A DNA stretch of 11,855 nt from the NCBI GenBank assembly GCA_012032965.1, contig JAAUPT010000018.1, positions 1-11,855 of the forward strand, given 5' to 3'. This DNA comes from Nitrospira sp. Its GTDB lineage: Bacteria; Nitrospirota; Nitrospiria; Nitrospirales; Nitrospiraceae. A program made the position numbers and the translations under genes. Shown one piece after another: positions 1,228 to 11,855 of this stretch (the stretch's first letter is position 1; each line of letters opens with the position of its first letter). The notes beneath the pieces are model-generated. The model saw only the letters and a program-made list of their open reading frames with translations, did no database searches and had not been told where the DNA came from.

Positions 1228-1648
1228 CGCAACAAATACCGGCGCTCGCGGCCTCATCTGTCGCTCGCTGTTCCTGACGAGCTAAGTCGGCACATTTTGT
1301 TGCCTCGCGTTGTTCGAGAATACGATCGAGCAACTTACACTCCTGATTCGCTATGACAAGGAGATTGTTGGTGCGCCGCCACGACAGAGTGGCCTGCTCA
1401 ATCTCCCGGTACGTCTGATTTAATGCCGCCTGCTGCGAGTGCATACGCACCTGCCACTCCAACATGGCTTCTATGGTCATGCCTTGCTCCGCTTGTTGAC
1501 TATATTGATCGGCATCCTCCACCATCTCGGTTTCGATCTTGCGATATCGTTCTTCGCTGCGCGAAAGAGATTGGACAATGTGGCCCAATTCCACCATGAG
1601 AGCCTCTACCGCCTGCCCGCGCAGCTTCCGTAACGAGTCAAGGCTCAT
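1148..1648 (-). CDS. fliJ: Flagellar export chaperone FliJ, 3' end probably frameshifted
   Basis: FliJ is a small antiparallel coiled-coil protein, the central stalk of the FliI hexamer and an escort for export chaperones. The ATG overlaps the fliI stop (ATGA). The protein is nearly all helix, rich in Glu, Gln and Arg (SRSEERYRKIETEMVEDADQ, WQVRMHSQQAALNQTYREIE, CKLLDRILEQREATKCADLA), as FliJ should be, although the family is weakly conserved, so position carries much weight. As read it has 166 residues, longer than the usual 140-150, with an odd Cys-rich, non-coiled tail after RATDEAA. One added base between 1254 and about 1235 would give a basic end, RERRYLLR, and a stop at 1226-1224 that overlaps an ATG of the next gene as ATGA, for 141 residues. 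That alternative end fits the family and operon style better. Confidence 0.82.
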   Translation of the reverse strand: MSLDSLRKLRGQAVEALMVELGHIVQSLSRSEERYRKIETEMVEDADQYSQQAEQGMTIEAMLEWQVRMHSQQAALNQTYREIEQATLSWRRTNNLLVIANQECKLLDRILEQREATKCADLARQEQRATDEAASAGICCDENGIYAFISHQSHERAVPFCQSETS

Positions 1649-2951
1649 GCCGCTTTCTTGGCCAGCATCTCAAGCTGCTGTGCAGACGATGTGAAGCTGG
1701 CTGCCTGATCAATGTCTTGGCGCAAATACCCGTTGATGGCGTCCTGCGCGTCAACGGCACGATCTAGGACGGCATTCATCCCTGGTTTGTAGGCACCAAG
1801 TAGGACCAAGTCCTCAGATTGTCGGTACCGAGCCACCAATTCCAGAAGCCGCCTGGACGCGTCGTAGTGTGAACGGTCGACGATATCCCGCATGACACGG
1901 CTGGTGCTTTGGAGCAGATCAATCGCGGGAAAATGATTCCGTGCCGCCAGTGTCCGAGAGAGGACGATATGGCCGTCTAAGATCGATCGGACCGTATCAG
2001 CGATTGGATCGTTCAGATCATCTCCATCGACGAGGACCGTGTACAATCCAGTTATGGTGCCGAGTCCGGATCCCGTCCCCACACGTTCCAAGAGTTTCGG
2101 CAAAAATGCAAACACCGAGGGAGTATAGCCTTTCGTCGTCGGAGGTTCTCCGATCGCGAGCCCAACTTCTCGCTGACTGTAGGCTAATCGCGTCAATGAA
2201 TCCATGAGCAACAAGACGTGCTTTCCTGCATCACGAAAATACTCGGCAATGGTCGTCGCCACCAGAGCAGCCCGGAGTCGAATGAGCGGAGCCTGGTCGG
2301 AGGTCGCCACGACTACGACGGAACGCGAGAGCGCTTCAGAACCAAGATCACGCTCTAAAAATTCGTTGACCTCGCGACCTCGTTCTCCGATCAGGGCAAT
2401 GACATTGACATCTGCTTTGGTATAGCGACTGATCATCCCCAGCAACACGCTCTTACCGACACCTGAACCGGAGAAGATCCCCATTTTTGGCCACGACCAC
2501 AGGTCAGAAAGCCGTTGATCGCACGAACACCGAGATCAAGCGGAGCGTGAACCCGTGCTCGTTGCAACGGGTTTGGAGCCTCAGCGTGAATCGGGTATCT
2601 GGCAATCGTCGCTGGTATGCCCTTGCCATCTAGCGGATTCCCACATCCATCGAGAACGCGCCCCAGCAAGCCTGAGCCAACAGCTAAGTTGGCGACGTGG
2701 CCCGTCATGGTAATTCGACTCCCTGGCCCAATACCCTGCATCTCTCCCAGCGGCATCAGCAACACGCGATCCCCGCGGAATCCCACCACTTCCGCAGTGA
2801 TCGGTCCATCACCGACCTCTCGAGTAATCCGGCACAACTCACCAACCGTCGTCATTGGTCCATACCCTTCCACGACCATTCCCACTGCTTGCACCACTCT
2901 TCCCGAAATCTCGATCGGGTCGATGTGTTCAATGAGATGACTAAGACTCAC
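1645..2951 (-). CDS. fliI: Flagellar type III export ATPase FliI, frameshifted at the Walker A region
   Basis: FliI is the hexameric ATPase of the flagellar export apparatus, related to the F1 beta subunit. The GTG start at 2951 overlaps the fliH end; AGGG lies about 7 bases upstream. Frame one gives the N-terminal beta-barrel and nucleotide-domain start up to LDLGVRAINGFLTCGRGQK (Lys156), then diverges. Frame two opens with MGIFSGSGVGKSVLLGMISR, the P-loop, then Walker B VLLLMDSLTR, the type III ATPase stretch GEPPTTKGYTPSVFAFLPKL and the ATPase signature PAIDLLQSTSR. Adding one A to the A5 run in GGCCAAAAATGGGG joins them as GRGQKMGIFSGSG, giving 435 residues, normal for FliI. As written, neither fragment could be a working ATPase. 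The stop overlaps the fliJ ATG as ATGA. Confidence 0.94.
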
Positions 2952-3966
2952 GATGAGCCCTATTCTTCAAGGCGTCGCCCACCCTGAGCAACTGCGTGTC
3001 AAGGGACGCATCCACCATTCGTGTGCTGGTATGCACAAGGCAACTTCCACGTGGGAGCGAGGCCACTGGTTCGATGGTGAGCGTTAGTGCGGGATCCTGT
3101 CGCCCTTCCAGTTCCGCCCGAACCGTCTCAAGGACGGCTGCATCCAGTGGATGCGCCTGTATAACCATCGCACCCGGCTCTCGAACAGCACCTAGTGCGT
3201 CCTTTACCTGTCGGACAATTTGTTCACGGTTCGATTCGGCCGACTCGTGAAGAAGTTTAGAGACGATCTGAAGTGACAAGGCAATGACCTCATCCTCGAC
3301 CGTCTGCTGCAGTTTGGATCGAGCCGTATCAAATTTCCTTGCCGCATCGATCAACACGGCGAGATCGTGTCGACGCGCTTCTTCCATTCGCCGCTGCGCA
3401 TCCACTACGCCGCGCTCGTATTCCGACGGGCCGTCGTTCTCCGCCATCGTGCCGTCTTCTCCAAACGTCTGAAACGGGGACATGTGCAGCCGTACCATGC
3501 CGGACTGAACCGCCGCATGCTTCAAGACTGTGTTCTCGACACGCAACCGATGGAGTTCCAACAATCGACGTACGGTCCCACGCACGATTTCTGACTGGAA
3601 CGGCTTGACCAAAAAGTCAATGGCGCCGGCTTTCATCGCGCGCACTGCGAGTTCGACCGTCGCTGCTCCCGTCATCACCACACCGATGATCCGACTATCA
3701 ATCTTCTGGGCTTCCTCAAGCACTGCAATCCCGTCTTGCTCGGGCAGCAAGACATCGACCATTAAGACAGCTGGAGCCATCTGCTTGACCATCGCAATCG
3801 CCTCGGACCCAGAACCAGCGACTCGAACGGACACTCGTTCCGTCCGGAATAGTTCAATGAACAGATTGCGAATCCCCTCCTCATCATCAACGATGAGGAT
3901 CGTCTCCTGCTGTCGGCCAAGCTCATGTTCGCGAAACGTTCCCGCTGATACCGCCGTTCGCTTCAC
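2941..3966 (-). CDS. fliH: Response-regulator receiver domain fused to flagellar export ATPase regulator FliH
   Basis: With the GTG start at 3966 the product has 341 residues in one unbroken frame. Residues about 21-135 are a CheY-like receiver: ILIVDDEE with acidic Asp27/Asp28, phospho-acceptor Asp71 in LMVDVLLPEQDG, Thr99 in VVMTGAA and Lys121 in FLVKPF, so the phosphorylation site is complete. A linker (about 136-175) leads to a helical FliH region (EYERGVVDAQRRMEEARRHD onward) and the C-terminal FliH fold ending VHTSTRMVDASLDTQLLRVGDAL. FliH dimers bind and restrain the ATPase FliI and dock it to the export gate. Position between fliG and fliI confirms identity. Standard FliH is about 220-270 residues with no receiver, so this is an unusual fusion. 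It overlaps fliI by 11 bases. Whether FleS or another kinase phosphorylates it is unknown. Confidence 0.92.
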   Translation of the reverse strand: MKRTAVSAGTFREHELGRQQETILIVDDEEGIRNLFIELFRTERVSVRVAGSGSEAIAMVKQMAPAVLMVDVLLPEQDGIAVLEEAQKIDSRIIGVVMTGAATVELAVRAMKAGAIDFLVKPFQSEIVRGTVRRLLELHRLRVENTVLKHAAVQSGMVRLHMSPFQTFGEDGTMAENDGPSEYERGVVDAQRRMEEARRHDLAVLIDAARKFDTARSKLQQTVEDEVIALSLQIVSKLLHESAESNREQIVRQVKDALGAVREPGAMVIQAHPLDAAVLETVRAELEGRQDPALTLTIEPVASLPRGSCLVHTSTRMVDASLDTQLLRVGDALKNRAHRES

Positions 3967-4958
3967 TACAACATCTCCTCTCCGACGCCGGCGATCACGA
4001 TACGGCCCTCCTCTTCGAGTTTTCGACAAACCTTCAGGATATTTTGTTGAGCTCGTTCCACATCCGAAATCTTGACTGGCCCTCGTGTCTCCATATCATC
4101 CTTCAACATTTCGGCAGCACGACTAGACATATTTTTGAAGAATTTCTCTTTCACGTCGGGATTGGCGCCCCGCAGTGCAACCGGCAGGTCATCTTTGCTG
4201 ATCTCTTTCATCAACTCTTGCATCCCACGGTCATCGACTTTCACGATGTCGTCAAACACAAACATGAGCGCCCGAATATTATCGGCAAGGATTTGGCTGT
4301 TTTCTGAAATTCTAGTCATGATCCCGCCTTCACTCGTCTTGTCCATCCGCATCAAGATATTGGCGATGACCTCGGCCCCTCCGACGCTATGAGCTCCCAT
4401 TTCTTTACTTACCAAAAGAGTTTCTTGTAACGTTTCACTCAGCTCCTCAAGGACATCCGGCTGCACTTCTTCCATCGTGGCAAGCCGAAGCGCTACATCT
4501 CCCCGCATGCCCTCAGGCAGGGCAGACAGCACTTGACTGGCTTGGGCACTCTCCAAATGGGCGAGAACGACCGCGACCGTTTGTGCATGCTCGACCTTCA
4601 GCATTTGAGTCAGGGTTTTCACGTCCACCCACTTCAACGCTTCCAGACCCGGATAGCTCTTCTGCGTCATCGATTCAATGATCCGCGCCGCCTTGTCCGG
4701 TCCCAGTGCCTTCGTGAGCACCGTCTTAATAAACTCTTTTCCCTGAAACTGAACTCCCCCCGTCGCACTCGCCGTTTGAAAATCTGAAATGACCGCCTCT
4801 TCCTCGTCTCGAGAAATCTGCGCCGTCCCGCTCATGAAGCTTCCCAATTTCTTGATTTCCTTCGGATCAAGTTGCTTCATGACTTGGGCGGCGGCCTCTT
4901 CACCGATGGCTCGAAGGAGAATGGCCGCTTTCTGTTCGCCCGTCAGATTCTTTGCCAT
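3966..4958 (-). CDS. fliG: Flagellar motor switch protein FliG
   Basis: I place the start at ATG 4958 (MAKNLTGEQKAAILL), 7 bases after the fliF stop; a longer open frame begins at 5060 inside fliF but lacks family sequence. The product has 330 residues, the normal FliG length. Domains: FliG_N (1-about 100), which binds FliF; a middle domain with the EHPQ-type motif here as EHAQ; and FliG_C with the torque-helix residues, seen in FVFDDIVKVDDRGMQELM and SRAAEMLKDDMETRGPVKIS. The conserved charged Arg, Asp-Asp and Arg that meet the stator are present. FliG sits on the cytoplasmic face of the MS ring and converts stator torque and switching signals. Its last codons (GGAGAGGAG) are the ribosome site of the next gene, whose GTG overlaps its TAG by one base. 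Confidence 0.98.
   Translation of the reverse strand: MAKNLTGEQKAAILLRAIGEEAAAQVMKQLDPKEIKKLGSFMSGTAQISRDEEEAVISDFQTASATGGVQFQGKEFIKTVLTKALGPDKAARIIESMTQKSYPGLEALKWVDVKTLTQMLKVEHAQTVAVVLAHLESAQASQVLSALPEGMRGDVALRLATMEEVQPDVLEELSETLQETLLVSKEMGAHSVGGAEVIANILMRMDKTSEGGIMTRISENSQILADNIRALMFVFDDIVKVDDRGMQELMKEISKDDLPVALRGANPDVKEKFFKNMSSRAAEMLKDDMETRGPVKISDVERAQQNILKVCRKLEEEGRIVIAGVGEEML
3975..3983 (-). promoter_or_regulatory. Ribosome binding site deciding the fliH start
   Basis: GGAGAGGAG inside the last codons of fliG is followed after 8 bases by GTG at 3966, which overlaps the fliG stop (TAGTG). The upstream ATG at 4029 in the same frame has no such site and would overlap fliG by 64 bases with a very Arg-rich, shadow-like sequence, so the GTG is preferred. 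Confidence 0.75.
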
Positions 4959-4965
4959 CTCTACG

Positions 4966-6532
4966 TTAGGTTGGATTCTTGAGCCACTGTTTGACGACAA
5001 CGGCGGTCGTATCAGGATTCTTTCGAGCCATGTCGATGATCTGTGCCCGATCCGGAGCATGTGTTAATGACGCGTCAGGCATCCCAGCCCGACCAGGGAG
5101 GGCGGAGGCCGATGCTTCGGCCTGCATTTGCTCGCTCGTCGATCCCAACATCGCCAACAACGGACGGACGACAAACAGGAGAATCACCGTGAACAGAAGG
5201 ATTCCGACACCATAACGAAGATAGGGCAACCACGCTTTGGGACCTTCCGCCGTCGCTTCTGCGACCATACCTTGTGGCTCATCGGGTCCCGTCCCAAATT
5301 GAACATTGACCACTTGCACTTGATCTTGCCGCTCAGCTGAAAATCCCATGGCTTTCTTGACGATGTCCTCGATTCGTTTTAAGTCCTCTTCCGAACGTGG
5401 AATATATTTGCGCGCCACGGCTGGCGCATCTGTTGCCTCTCCTTCACCAGCTTTAATCGGTTCATACATGCCGTCGACGAGAACGGCCACGGAGAGTTGC
5501 TTGATCACACCCACAGGCTCTACAATTTTTGAGACGGTTCGGCTAATCTCGTAGTTCACGGTCTCATTTTTTTGTTTGGCTGTTGTTTGAACTCGTTTGC
5601 GCAGGCTCCTGGTCTGTGCCTGGCGGCACGTTCGACTCGACACCCGGGACTCCGCCACCGACCCCGTTGGTACCGTTGGCCTTCTCTTGCCCTCGCTGTT
5701 CACTCCTCACCACTTGACTGTTCGGGTCGTAACGTTCTTCCGTCGTCTCCACCTTGCGAAAATCTACGAGACTGGATACGCGCACCACGGCCTTGTTCGG
5801 TCCCACGATCCGCTCCACCATCGTCTGAATGCGTGTCTCCACATCCTTTTCAACACTGCGCTGATAATCAAGCTGCGTGTTGGTCAAGCCGGATGCATCA
5901 TCCGTCACCGTGGCTGACAACATGCGGCCATGCCCATCCACGATGGTCACATCCCGAGCCTGTAACCCTTCCACGCTGCTCGACACGAGATGAATCACTC
6001 CCTGCACCTGTGCTTGACCCAGTTGTTGTCCATTACGAAGCGTCAGGATAACGGACCCGCGCGCTTTTTCCTGCTCGCTCGCGAACAGTCGTCGTTCTGG
6101 TATGGCGAGGTGGACCCGAGCCCGTTCTACCTCCGGCATCTGTGCAATGGTCCTCGCCAACTCACCCTGTAGCGCTCGACGATAGTTGAGTTTTTGGACG
6201 AATTCCGACATGCCGATCGAGGTTCGATCGAAAATCTCAAATCCAACCCCTCCTCCGTGCGGAAGCCCTTGCGTCGCAAGTTGAAGCCGCAAGTCATGCA
6301 CCTGTTCGCTCGGCACCAGGACGGTCGAGCCGCCACCGGTAGTTTCATACGGCACCTTCGTCTCTTTGAGCTTGTCGACAATAGCTGCCGCATCTTCAGC
6401 CCCGAGATTGGTGAACAGCACTTGCATGTCTGGCTGCTGGGTCCAGAGCGTAAGGGCAATGAGACCGGCAACAGACCCCGCCAAGGCCACGAGGATGATC
6501 ATCCGTTGATTGATGGTGAACTTTGACAGCAT
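4966..6532 (-). CDS. fliF: Flagellar MS-ring protein FliF, frameshifted at an A7 run
   Basis: FliF forms the inner-membrane MS ring that carries the rod and binds FliG. Frame one (6532-5564) has the first membrane helix (about 11-30), the YscJ-like ring-building domain and the central FliF domain, then stops in TGA right after ACAAAAAAATGA. Frame two continues at NETVNYEISRTVSKIVEP, with the second membrane helix (YGVGILLFTVILLFVV) and the C-terminal FliG-binding motif NPDTTAVVVKQWLKN. Removing one A from the A7 run (or adding two) joins the frames as NSQTKNETVNYE and gives 521 residues, near family size. A -1 slip at A AAA AAA would read ATG AGA CCG TGA and stop, so ordinary -1 recoding does not rescue it. 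GAGG lies just upstream of the ATG, and fliG begins 7 bases after the stop. Confidence 0.93.
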
Positions 6533-8010: not shown

Positions 8011-9422
8011 TCATGACATTGGAATGGACAATGGCCTTTCGCACTCACGATATTCCCGCAACTTGTTTCGCAACGTACGGATGCTGATCCCCAGTTCTTT
8101 CGCCGCGTGCGTGCGATTGTCTTTCACACGAGCGAGTGTCTTGAAAATCAGCTCTCGTTCCATCTCCCACAATGACCCGTTGGCCGGTTGTTGAGGACGG
8201 GCTGGCTGTCCCACCATTCGTTACACGTTTCCGCCGGACAATGTTCGGGAAGGATTGATCCATCGCCCGCCAACAAGACCGCTCGTTCCATCACATTCTC
8301 TAATTCGCGTACATTTCCCTTCCACACCAACCGTTGAAGATGTGCTAAAGCGTCTTCCGACAGAGTCGGCGGCGTGAGCCCGTTCCTGAGTGCCGATTGA
8401 GTCGCAAAATTCCGAGCAAGCAGGGGAATATCGATCGCACGCTCACGAAGCGGCGGAACGGTAATGGGAAATACATTGAGACGATAATAGAGATCTTCCC
8501 GAAAGCGGCCAGCTTCTACCTCACGATACAGCGCCCTATTGGTCGTGGCAATCACGCGAATATTGACTGGAACCGGATCGCGCCCTCCAATCCGATCCAC
8601 CTCGCGCTCTTGCAGCACACGCAGCAGCTTCGCTTGAAGAGGCAGATTCATCTCACTGATTTCATCGAGAAGCAGTGTACCCGTGTGGGCCATTTCAAAC
8701 TTGCCGATTTTTCTGATCAAGGCACCGGTGAATGCTCCGCGTTCGTGCCCGAACAGTTCACTCTCCAGCAGGCCATCCGGCAGTGCTGCACAATTGACGG
8801 CGATAAACGGCCGATGGGCCCGCGGGCTTCTGGCATGGATAAACCGAGCCAGAAGCTCTTTACCCGTGCCACTTTCTCCATGAATCAACACCGTGGCCTG
8901 GCTTGCGGCCACTCCCTCAATCGTACTCAAGAGTCTGACCATTCCGGGGTCTTGGGTTAAAATGGCGCGGCTTTCTGTCGATTGAACAGGTGGACCGGCA
9001 GGGAGACCTTCTTCTCGTCCAGCCTTGAGACTCACAATCATGCGCTCCAGGACGTCCATTGAAAATGGTTTGAGCAGGTACTCGCTCGCGCCAAGCTTCA
9101 TGGCCTCCACGGCTGTTTCAATCGTCCCATACGCCGTCATAAGGACAATCGTGACCTGCGGCGCCCGCGACCTGATCTCCCTGATCAAGTCAAGACCACT
9201 GAGCCGCGGCATCCTGAGGTCGGTCAGCACCAACCATGGACGAAACCGGACGAGGCGCTCCATGGCATCACTCCCGTCGACCGCTCCTTGGACCGCATAC
9301 CCGAGTCTCTTGACCGTCTCTATCAGCGCAGTTCGCATCGATGGATCATCATCGACGATCAGAACGCGTTCGCTTTCGTCGTGATGGTCTACCAGAGGGC
9401 CGTTCTTCTCACGTTCATTCAT
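8011..9422 (-). CDS. fleR: Sigma-54-dependent flagellar response regulator FleR/FlrC-type, frameshifted before its HTH
   Basis: An NtrC-family activator in two frames. The first (9422-8148) encodes a receiver domain (about 19-130; acidic residues 24-26, phospho-acceptor Asp68, Lys118) and a complete AAA+ domain with Walker A GESGTGK (182-188), the sigma-54 contact loop GAFTGA (229-234) and Walker B LLLDE (ending 254). It then runs into about 24 non-homologous residues. The second frame (covering 8217-8011) encodes a Fis-type helix-turn-helix, recognisable by [19 protein letters not shown] and [10 protein letters not shown]. One added base between about 8219 and 8165, for example in AAC GAA or the GGG nearby, joins them into a 470-residue protein of normal family length. 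As read, the product would lack its DNA-binding domain. It probably activates the sigma-54 promoter 138 bases downstream of its stop. The start overlaps fleS. The symbol follows context. Confidence 0.88.
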
Positions 9423-10716
9423 GCAGCCACTCCTCTGCTAACGCCAACTCGCAGTTGATATGCTCGTCTTCATCTGATTCGTATTCTTTCCCCTCCGAGA
9501 CCTGAATCTCGCCTGAGGCTGACCCCACCGGAGGATGCGGCAGGATGATCGTGAACGTCGTGCCCTGCCCGATCGTGCTGTGAACATCGATCCGTCCTTG
9601 GTGGGCATCGACGATTGAATAGACAATTGCGAGGCCGAGGCCTGTTCCCTCATCCTTTGTCGTAAAGAAGGGATCAAACACACGTGACCGATGATCCGGG
9701 TCAATGCCCACACCGGAATCTCGCACAGTCAGCCGAACGGACGGTATTCCAAGCGTCTGCGGCAGTTCTTTTTGGAGGCTGACTGTCAAACGACCTCCGT
9801 TGGGCATGGCCTGAACGGCATTCACAACGAGGTTCAATATGACTTGCTTCATTTGCCCATCGTGACACCAGAGCGACGCAATGTCCGGATCGATGTCCAC
9901 GCGAATCTCTATCGGCACTTTCGTAATCGCATGAGCCGCCAACTTAATGGAATCGTGGATTAACGGTTCGGAGAAGTGCCATCCACGCGCCATACGCGCC
10001 GGCCTCGTGTACAGCAGGAGATTGGCGAGTAATCGATCCATCGATTGGACGGCCTGTGATATCTGCTCAGCATAACGCTTGGCGGATGAATCATGCTCAA
10101 GATCTCGCTGCAGCATGGAGGCGAAGAGCTCGACACTACCCAATGGATTTCTGACTTCATGAGCGATCCGACCAATGAGCTCTCCCATTGCGGCGAGTCG
10201 ATCCTTGCGCTGCAATTGCTCTTCAAGCTGATAGATACGCGTGACATCTTGAATGAGAATCAGGTGACTGGAACCGCCGTTTGAATCTTTGCGCAGCGGT
10301 ACTTGACTGATTGAGACCACGGTCTGCCCAAGGCGTTGAGGCCGATCACACACACTCACACCTAGACGGGTGAGGACCTCTGACGCCACGCGGTTGCGCA
10401 GCTCCCCCTCAGTAGCACCAAACATTGCCTCAGCGGCAAGATTGCTACGGGTAATCACCTCGCGCTCGTCCACCACCAACACTCCCGTGGATAAAGATTC
10501 AAGAATGCCATTAAGATGCATCCGCATCGCCTCGTTCTCGCAAAGCTGTCGGCGAAGCGCTTCATTGCTGTCCGCCAGCTCAACATCCATCTGCTCTACA
10601 CGTGCCGTCAATGCAGTATAGGACTGTTGTAGTGTTTGCGCGGCCTCATCAAAACTCCTGAACGCTGCCTGGAGCAGGTCCCGTTCCTCCGGTTGCCCTG
10701 TCGTCGCAGTTGTCAT
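9415..10716 (-). CDS. fleS: Cytosolic PAS-domain sensor histidine kinase, FleS/FlrB-type
   Basis: The protein has 433 residues and no membrane segment, so it should be cytosolic. Order of parts: an N-terminal helical coiled-coil stretch (about 20-70), a PAS-like domain (about 70-165), a HisKA dimerisation domain with H-box IAHEVRNPLG and phospho-acceptor His186, then an HATPase_c domain with N-box NLVVNA (295-300), G1 box DSGVGI (333-338), F-box FDPFFTTK and G2 box GTGLGLA (357-363). All catalytic boxes are intact. Family knowledge: FleS, FlrB and FlgS are soluble kinases that phosphorylate a sigma-54 activator to turn on rod and hook genes. The start overlaps the TPR gene by ATGA and the end overlaps fleR by 8 bases, the usual arrangement for a cognate pair. 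After the ATPase domain comes an acidic tail of about 40 residues (ESDEDE near 413-418) not typical of the core fold. The symbol is assigned by context; AtoS- or ZraS-like kinases are alternatives. Confidence 0.9.
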   Translation of the reverse strand: MTTATTGQPEERDLLQAAFRSFDEAAQTLQQSYTALTARVEQMDVELADSNEALRRQLCENEAMRMHLNGILESLSTGVLVVDEREVITRSNLAAEAMFGATEGELRNRVASEVLTRLGVSVCDRPQRLGQTVVSISQVPLRKDSNGGSSHLILIQDVTRIYQLEEQLQRKDRLAAMGELIGRIAHEVRNPLGSVELFASMLQRDLEHDSSAKRYAEQISQAVQSMDRLLANLLLYTRPARMARGWHFSEPLIHDSIKLAAHAITKVPIEIRVDIDPDIASLWCHDGQMKQVILNLVVNAVQAMPNGGRLTVSLQKELPQTLGIPSVRLTVRDSGVGIDPDHRSRVFDPFFTTKDEGTGLGLAIVYSIVDAHQGRIDVHSTIGQGTTFTIILPHPPVGSASGEIQVSEGKEYESDEDEHINCELALAEEWLHE

Positions 10717-11855
10717 AGCCCCTCCGCATGACGAGATTGCCGAGCTGTTTGCAGACTGTTCTTCAGAGATGCGGCTATGCGATTGACCATCTGGTCGGCG
10801 GCGGCATCGAGTTCGGCCAGTGCAACCGTGGCTCGATCATATTGCTTGAGCGCCATCCAATGCTTGGCCGTTTGCAGGTGCGCCCATTCGGACTGATGAG
10901 CGTTCGGTTTCTTTTCTAAGACTAATTGATAGGCGGCGATCGCCCGCTCATGTCGATTCAACTGGGACAAGATGTCCGCGTAGGACAGCAATGTTCCGGC
11001 GGACTGAGTCGCACCAGATTTGAACGCTTCTTCGAATGCAAGTGCGGACTCATCGAGCTTTTCCAGCTCCTCCAGAGTCTTGGCCAGCTGCAGATACATG
11101 ACAGGGCGCTCAGGATGAACCGGATGACGTAAGAGCCATGTTCGGCAGAGGTGGAGAAGGCCTTGTAGCTCCCGCTGTTGCCGCATGGTACTGATAAGAA
11201 GTTGCAGGACTTCCCCTTCGTATTTTCCGATGGGAAACTGGAACCGATATCGCTCAAGCACTTTTCTGGCAGCCTCTGCATCCCGCTGATCTAAGTAGTT
11301 CTTTCCCAAGCCAACTAAAGCTGGCTCAACCAGCGCTGAGTCTTTTTGGACCTTGATCACCTGCTGAAGCAGTCGTACGGCTTCGGTAGTGAACCCCAGA
11401 CGTCGATGGGATTCAGCGATTTCCAGGAGCATCGGTGAACGCGCGTACCGTTGCTCGGCCATGACGCCATGTCGGTGATACAAACTGACGACCGTCCAAT
11501 CGTCATGCGACGCAATCGCCGCCTGAATCCATGGTACGAGGAGGGCTGACAACCGCGCTGCTGCCTTAGTGGCCCATGGCTCACTTCCCCTTGCAGTTCG
11601 AAAGGTAACTTCTTTGTACGTATGAATCGCCTCGTTCAGCTCATTTCTCTTCTCGTACTCTTGCCCGAGGTAAAACAGCGCCTCGCTTCCTGTAGGAGTG
11701 TCCGCCTCCCGAATGGCGATCTCTTCCAGCAGCGCTCGATATGAAGCTGTGGTGTCTATCGGAACCGTCACGTTGTGAATCATGGCTCCGATGATCGGAC
11801 TGAGGACCTTGCCGTCGTCCGATACACGACTTTGAGTCAGGAGCGTGGCAAGTCG
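10713..11855 (-). CDS. TPR-repeat protein, 5' end outside window (partial)
   Basis: The frame stays open to the window edge: 24 codons precede the first ATG (11783) with no stop, so the gene starts upstream and about 380 C-terminal residues are visible. The protein is almost wholly alpha-helical, with repeated 34-residue-like units of tetratricopeptide type, such as the stretches beginning ALFYLGQEYEKRNELNEAI, MLLEIAESHRRLGFTTEAV and LLSYADILSQLNRHERAI. TPR arrays are protein-interaction scaffolds and no catalytic motif is seen. No signal peptide can be judged because the N terminus is missing. Its stop overlaps the start of the histidine kinase gene by ATGA, which implies translational coupling and a shared transcript. 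I infer a role near the FleS-FleR signalling pair, perhaps as a sensor or assembly partner, but the sequence does not prove this. I do not recognise a named gene. Confidence 0.85.
   Translation of the reverse strand, partial: RLATLLTQSRVSDDGKVLSPIIGAMIHNVTVPIDTTASYRALLEEIAIREADTPTGSEALFYLGQEYEKRNELNEAIHTYKEVTFRTARGSEPWATKAAARLSALLVPWIQAAIASHDDWTVVSLYHRHGVMAEQRYARSPMLLEIAESHRRLGFTTEAVRLLQQVIKVQKDSALVEPALVGLGKNYLDQRDAEAARKVLERYRFQFPIGKYEGEVLQLLISTMRQQRELQGLLHLCRTWLLRHPVHPERPVMYLQLAKTLEELEKLDESALAFEEAFKSGATQSAGTLLSYADILSQLNRHERAIAAYQLVLEKKPNAHQSEWAHLQTAKHWMALKQYDRATVALAELDAAADQMVNRIAASLKNSLQTARQSRHAEGL

Follow-up and report, generated by a model that had tools for sequence, protein, structure and literature searches.

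In Salmonella, FliH forms a dimer that anchors the ring of the flagellar ATPase FliI and, within the FliH2-FliI complex, suppresses FliI ATPase activity; FliN and FlhA are bound by the far N-terminal end of FliH, which includes Trp-7 and Trp-10 (PMC9114704). The activity of the kinase FlrB/FleS requires the MS ring, the rotor and the export core, and Burnham et al. suggested that it may monitor the export apparatus via a factor that they left unidentified (PMC7064773). The same source leaves two questions open: what switches flagellar export post-translationally, and by what means kinases of the FleS/FlrB type detect completion of the export apparatus (PMC7064773). Homologs of FleQ and FleSR are described in Nitrospira strain ND1 and in N. 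defluvii (PMC5767232). A core export component carrying its own receiver would make both questions testable in one protein. Here we discuss such a candidate, found in a stretch of 11,855 nucleotides from a Nitrospira sp. contig, referred to below as the window.

A receiver and FliH in one frame

The window contains on its minus strand a single open frame (2941..3966), here called RR-fliH, in which a receiver is fused to FliH. Read from a GTG start, it encodes 341 residues up to the stop; an upstream TTG as start would give a product of 362 residues. An unbroken frame joining the two parts had been reported in a preliminary description of this DNA, and both Pfam domains were found within its 341 codons: Response_reg (PF00072) at residues 23-127 (3586..3900; E 3.4e-22, 79.2 bits for a cut-off of 30.2) and, by profile search, FliH (PF02108) at residues 205-328 (2983..3354; E 1.2e-15, 58-59.1 bits for a curated cut-off of 24.1). 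Comparison with RR-A, a regulator of the same gene cluster, assigns residues 128-155 (3502..3585) to the end of alpha5 and a linker helix like that of RR-A. Residues 147-178 (3433..3528), at the position of the FliH docking end, are predicted to be disordered, and residues 182-245 (3232..3423) form a long FliH-stalk helix in the structure model; all these features lie on the minus strand. The receiver bears F118 together with D27, D28, D71, T99 and K121; the five phosphorylation residues listed in the preliminary description are thus all present in the window protein, which has the full DD, D, T/S, K active site and lacks none of the key residues whose loss marks a pseudo-receiver. Pfam detected in RR-FliH neither the AAA+ sigma-54 domain nor the Fis-type HTH, both of which are found in RR-A. 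Genome G000, to which the window belongs (2.39 Mb in 440 contigs, about 68% complete), has one copy of RR-fliH.

The structure model of RR-FliH has a mean pLDDT of 77.2 and a pTM of 0.41, a value at which the relative placement of the parts is not fixed. Within it the receiver is ordered (pLDDT mostly 84-94), residues 147-178 fall below 50 and the helix at 182-245 is formed. F168, inside the flexible stretch, is kept in 67/69 fusion proteins. The window protein has no Trp, as is the case for 35/69 fusion proteins. Receivers top the Foldseek list of the model and filled the structure lists of RR-FliH, which gave no confirming match for its FliH fold; a bare FliH used as query returned nothing significant, only OSCP at E 0.55.

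The frame lies between fliG and fliI, as first described, in the window and in all 18 fusion loci whose gene order was compared. Upstream, the stop of fliG (3966..5060, minus strand) overlaps the GTG of RR-fliH by one base; downstream, fliI (1645..2951, minus strand), in two frames in this assembly, starts inside the end of fliH. Among the 20 longer loci, the fusion loci and that of genus g14 share the order RR-A, TPR protein, FleS, FleR, flgB, flgC, fliE, fliF, fliG, fliH, fliI; the f3 locus has a similar order, a TPR match not being seen there. The RR-A gene lies some 10 kb upstream of RR-fliH. RR-A combines a receiver, a sigma-54 AAA+ domain and HTH_8. At 13963-15411 of locus L058, and at the equivalent positions elsewhere, it is an NtrC/AtoC-type regulator of the flagellar cluster with an intact receiver. 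No kinase was found beside RR-A in L058, a g1 (Nitrospira) locus; immediately upstream of RR-A in g19 and g22 there is a hybrid kinase, along with a single receiver. The TPR protein between RR-A and FleS in fusion loci measures about 720-750 aa (10713-11783 in the window; 11663-13894 in L058). At 466-1257 of the window, after FliJ, a protein with a weak MgtE_N-type match is kept in the loci, and we take it to be MotE-like.

In the loci whose gene order was compared, the kinase encoded between RR-A and FleR is FleS, in the window a PAS histidine kinase (9415..10716, minus strand), and is followed by a FleR-type sigma-54 regulator (8148..9422, minus strand) with a C-terminal frame break. Three window genes are each read in two frames, FliF (4966-6532), FliI (1645-2951) and FleR (8014-9422), and the window FleR is without an HTH. 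Compared with genome G101, the breaks fall near 5570-5586 in FliF, at 2478-2487 in FliI and at 8103-8214 in FleR. Across the 20 loci L058-L077, FliI is a single frame of 435-480 codons and FliF a single frame of 466-553 codons. The three breaks are likely assembly errors of the window genome; RR-fliH, fliG and fleS are unbroken in it.

Distribution and origin of the fusion

The receiver-FliH fusion was found in 69 fetched genomes of the family Nitrospiraceae (f1) in addition to the window, spread over seven genera: 40 in g1, 17 in g10, 8 in g12 and one each in g13, g15, g19 and g22. These belong to stretches fetched from 76 genomes, of which five carry a bare FliH (two from g11 and one each from g14, f3 and f14) and two (G013 and G188) gave no FliH match, the G013 contig ending at flgB. 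Genera g11 and g14 thus have FliH without a receiver although they lie within f1. Among 20 f1 genomes chosen for an absent or doubtful fusion, 17 gave no FliH match at all. Long FliH frames (343-384 codons) occur in the same-genus genomes G001, G004, G008, G011, G017 and G022, outside the 69. Genome G347 (L116) has a 349-codon FliH frame on each of two contigs, either two copies or mixed strains.

Of the 611 homologs found in a database search, 120 were listed, and both Pfam domains are present in 119 of these; P0048, the remaining one, is a FliH-only product of 244 aa on a contig of 1,830 bases. The named sources of the listed homologs are Nitrospira. L112, a record titled uncultured Nitrosospira, holds a fusion 62% identical, as Nitrospira genomes have, and is probably mislabelled. 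The architecture has already been annotated, since the record of P0052 is named 'putative Flagellar biosynthesis protein FliH with response regulator receiver domain'; we found no study of a receiver-bearing FliH by title or abstract in the open-licence literature.

Beyond the family, samples of 146 genomes for the class and 295 for the phylum were used, loci being taken among the matches listed. FliH was matched in 162/295 genomes of the phylum sample. Receiver and FliH shared a frame at 3 of the 43 Nitrospirota FliH loci examined, all three in f1, and the receiver profile found no receiver on FliH at the 40 loci from other families. In the phylum of the Pseudomonas genome G370, FliH was present in 105/150 genomes. 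Outside Nitrospirota a receiver was seen on FliH at 0/39 loci, namely all 32 listed frames of at least 320 codons (shorter ones were judged unable to accommodate the two domains) plus seven loci drawn from a set of 50 further named genomes, with no dedicated sample of Bacillota or Spirochaetota. The profile applied to these 43 and 39 loci, built from the receivers of Nitrospira, might overlook a highly divergent one; it matched 9/10 control loci, the tenth (L117) having been fetched for a receiver match. A scan of genome contigs gave at least 80 loci, and most of the 80 were other receivers.

With the receiver missing at the 40 other-family and 39 outside loci, the fusion is seen only in f1 in these samples, which fits the earlier statement that FliH normally lacks any receiver. 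Its presence in 69 f1 genomes shows that it is no assembly artefact, and no stop or frameshift separates the two parts in any of these relatives; a frameshift product or chimeric assembly was rejected on the strength of the 69 genomes and the 119/120 listed homologs. As judged from these sequences, receiver-FliH is a genuine architecture of a single lineage, in which known domains are combined. The bare FliH of g11 and g14 may reflect primary absence of the receiver or its later loss; the base of f1 stands at 14% in one tree and the split of fusion and bare forms at 75/54 in another.

A tree of 85 receivers unites its 16 fusion receivers in one clade (SH-aLRT 97), which is nested together with RR-A in a larger group (SH-aLRT 98); FleR and the other G101 receivers included fall elsewhere. 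The tree is short and of the quick kind (141 columns; 30 of the 102 G101 receivers, among them RR-A, FleR and two mutually identical ones), so the exact branching inside the RR-A group is unsure. Compared within each of 15 genomes, the fusion receiver shares 38-52% identity with RR-A and 28-38% with FleR. Comparison by segments gave a likeness of 0.81 to RR-A versus 0.31 to FleR for the loop after D71, and of 0.26 versus 0.06 for the linker, whose helix is common to RR-FliH and RR-A and missing from FleR. The top PDB sequence matches are to the NtrC1 receiver plus linker, the profile match reaching residue 151. By these comparisons the receiver is of NtrC/AtoC type with RR-A as its nearest paralog, and it appears to have been copied from this flagellar regulator. 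Derivation from the neighbouring FleR was rejected by the tree, the identities and the linker. A CheY origin was likewise rejected by the NtrC1 match and the clade with RR-A, and the earlier label 'CheY-like' is misleading for a receiver and linker of this kind. The same grouping weighs against phosphorylation of RR-FliH by CheA, through which export would follow the chemotactic state; che genes are reported in Nitrospira strain ND1 (PMC5767232), and we nevertheless regard this as the least probable of the explanations considered.

Conservation of the receiver and candidate kinases

An acidic residue at the position of D28 is a direct metal ligand, and the feature most often seen in pseudo-receivers is a non-acidic residue there (PMC12632262). 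Across the 69 genomes and the window, position 27 is D or E in 70/70 proteins, and D71, T or S at position 99 and K121 are each found in 70/70. Position 28 is acidic in 60/70, which therefore retain the full DD, D, T/S, K site, and non-acidic in 10/70, nine of the ten forming one g1 group. The corresponding residue is D in 68/69 RR-A and 69/69 FleR proteins. In the 120 listed homologs together with the query, D28 is D in 83/120, D71 is D in 118/120 (E in 2/120), T or S99 is found in 117/121 (T99 replaced by A in 4/121) and K121 in 121/121. The preliminary description's 'all phosphorylation residues' therefore holds for the window and not for every one of its relatives, and degeneration of the receiver, the possibility raised against it, is absent from most of them and present, in part, in one sub-lineage through the loss of D28.

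Selection was gauged by medians of simple pairwise Nei-Gojobori dN/dS, the pairs being non-independent. The receiver has lower values than the FliH part in D28-bearing g1 genomes (0.068 versus 0.102, 43 pairs), in g10 (0.051 versus 0.069, 29 pairs) and in pairs with the window (0.129 versus 0.175, 3 pairs), estimates that place it under purifying selection. The order is reversed in the nine g1 genomes lacking D28 (0.16 for the receiver versus 0.096 for FliH, 25 pairs). At a FliH identity of 90-95%, receivers are 94% identical among D28-bearing genomes (17 pairs) and 76% identical between D28-less and D28-bearing ones (5 pairs). From the active-site counts and the dN/dS values, most RR-FliH receivers look phosphorylatable, and the D28-less lineage looks to be heading toward a pseudo-receiver; to the extent that the domain functions in that lineage, it probably serves as a binding module with little phosphorylation.

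These data bear on whether the receiver fold might be a constitutive docking or dimerisation tag on FliH, with the pole, the C-ring or RR-A as its target, operating independently of phosphorylation. The faster change of the receiver where D28 was lost and the variability of the kinase-contact helix would agree with such a role, for which the pseudo-receiver of FrzS offers a precedent (PMC1974792). The retention of D71, T/S99 and K121 in 70/70 proteins, the acidic residue kept at position 28 in most members and the strong purifying selection outside the D28-less group make it a doubtful account of the family, though the strongest competitor of phosphorylation-tuned export.

Variability along the receivers was compared in 64 genomes. 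The helix of the FleS DHp domain that follows the phospho-His is nearly invariant over 21 positions. The mean entropy of alpha1 is 1.65 in the fusion receiver, its most variable segment, 1.42 in RR-A and 0.47 in FleR; at the positions that we presume, from CheY numbering, to contact the kinase, entropy is 1.41, 0.80 and 0.54, respectively. Part of the alpha1 variability is general, since the fusion receiver evolves faster overall (mean pairwise identity 0.57, versus 0.64 for RR-A and 0.75 for FleR). A dedicated kinase is not evident when the kinase-contacting helix itself varies.

The coupling to FleS-FleR proposed at the outset is weakened by this entropy comparison, the alpha1 of the FliH receiver varying while that of FleR and the FleS DHp helix are conserved, and a tight pairing of RR-FliH with FleS is not favoured by the sequences. 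In its fullest form this coupling would have FleS phosphorylate RR-FliH, FleR and perhaps RR-A, RR-FliH being the part by which FleS senses assembly. The position of FleS between RR-A and FleR, and the dependence of FlrB/FleS on the MS ring, rotor and export core (PMC7064773), speak for it; given the variable contact positions and the presence of FleS and FleR also in the bare-FliH genomes of g14 and f3, we hold it to be unlikely. Alternatively, the FliH receiver could pair with RR-A through the latter's receiver and linker and retain this regulator on the export apparatus, so that transcription would be coupled to assembly. Descent of both receiver and linker from RR-A suits this idea, as does the finding that the FliH receiver varies least in alpha4 (mean entropy 0.45), but alpha4 is conserved in FleR too (0.10) and the overall identity to RR-A is just 38-52%; such sequestration seems very unlikely, if marginally less so than the chemotaxis link.

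Proposed function and relation to known systems

Our preferred reading, to which we give a probability of about one half, is that RR-FliH is specific to this lineage, arose when the receiver and linker of RR-A were copied onto FliH, has been kept by selection and tunes export according to its phosphorylation. Sequence comparison indicates that the event took place once within f1, bringing the receiver together with a dimer-forming linker helix to the N-terminus of FliH, and that the RR-A-derived domain has since been retained there. Because the N-terminus of Salmonella FliH docks on FliN and FlhA, the receiver would sit at the docking end of the dimeric FliH stalk, joined to it by the flexible stretch. 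A dimer-prone receiver at this end suggests docking tuned by phosphorylation: modification of D71 would move the paired receivers from one dimer state to another, and this shift would tune either how FliH docks or how the ATPase complex of FliI is released. The outcome, which we infer, would be a two-component control of flagellar export exerted after translation.

More tentatively, RR-FliH could be a phosphorylation switch within the flagellar type III export machine itself, through which a two-component signal starts or stops the FliI ATPase complex with no change in transcription; it may also be the physical connection by which Nitrospira flagellar regulators sense assembly of the export apparatus. 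It is speculative to see in it the factor postulated by Burnham et al., and the FleS results count against any simple form of that idea. The receiver-FliH combination changes where a two-component signal could act, and family f1 offers a natural series of FliH without a receiver (g11 and g14), with an intact one (60/70) and with the metal ligand lost (10/70).

RR-FliH shares with other FliH proteins (PF02108), the stalk and regulator of the FliI ATPase, the FliH domain, the long helix and the position between fliG and fliI, and differs from them by an extra receiver in place of the extreme N-terminus. Salmonella FliH docks by Trp-7 and Trp-10 (PMC9114704), whereas the window protein contains no Trp. 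With NtrC/AtoC-type regulators such as NtrC1 and RR-A it has in common the receiver and linker helix, which in those proteins are followed by AAA+ and HTH domains and here by a flagellar export protein. CheY is a stand-alone receiver under CheA control; the receiver of RR-FliH is fused and groups with RR-A. FrzS of Myxococcus xanthus likewise has a receiver heading a motility protein, but it is not a flagellar export protein and lacks the phosphorylated Asp (PMC1974792), which RR-FliH keeps. Finally, the FleSR, FlrBC and FlgSR systems also link flagellar assembly to two-component signalling, and FleS and FleR are both encoded in the window; their known outputs are transcriptional, whereas in RR-FliH the receiver is placed on the export apparatus itself.
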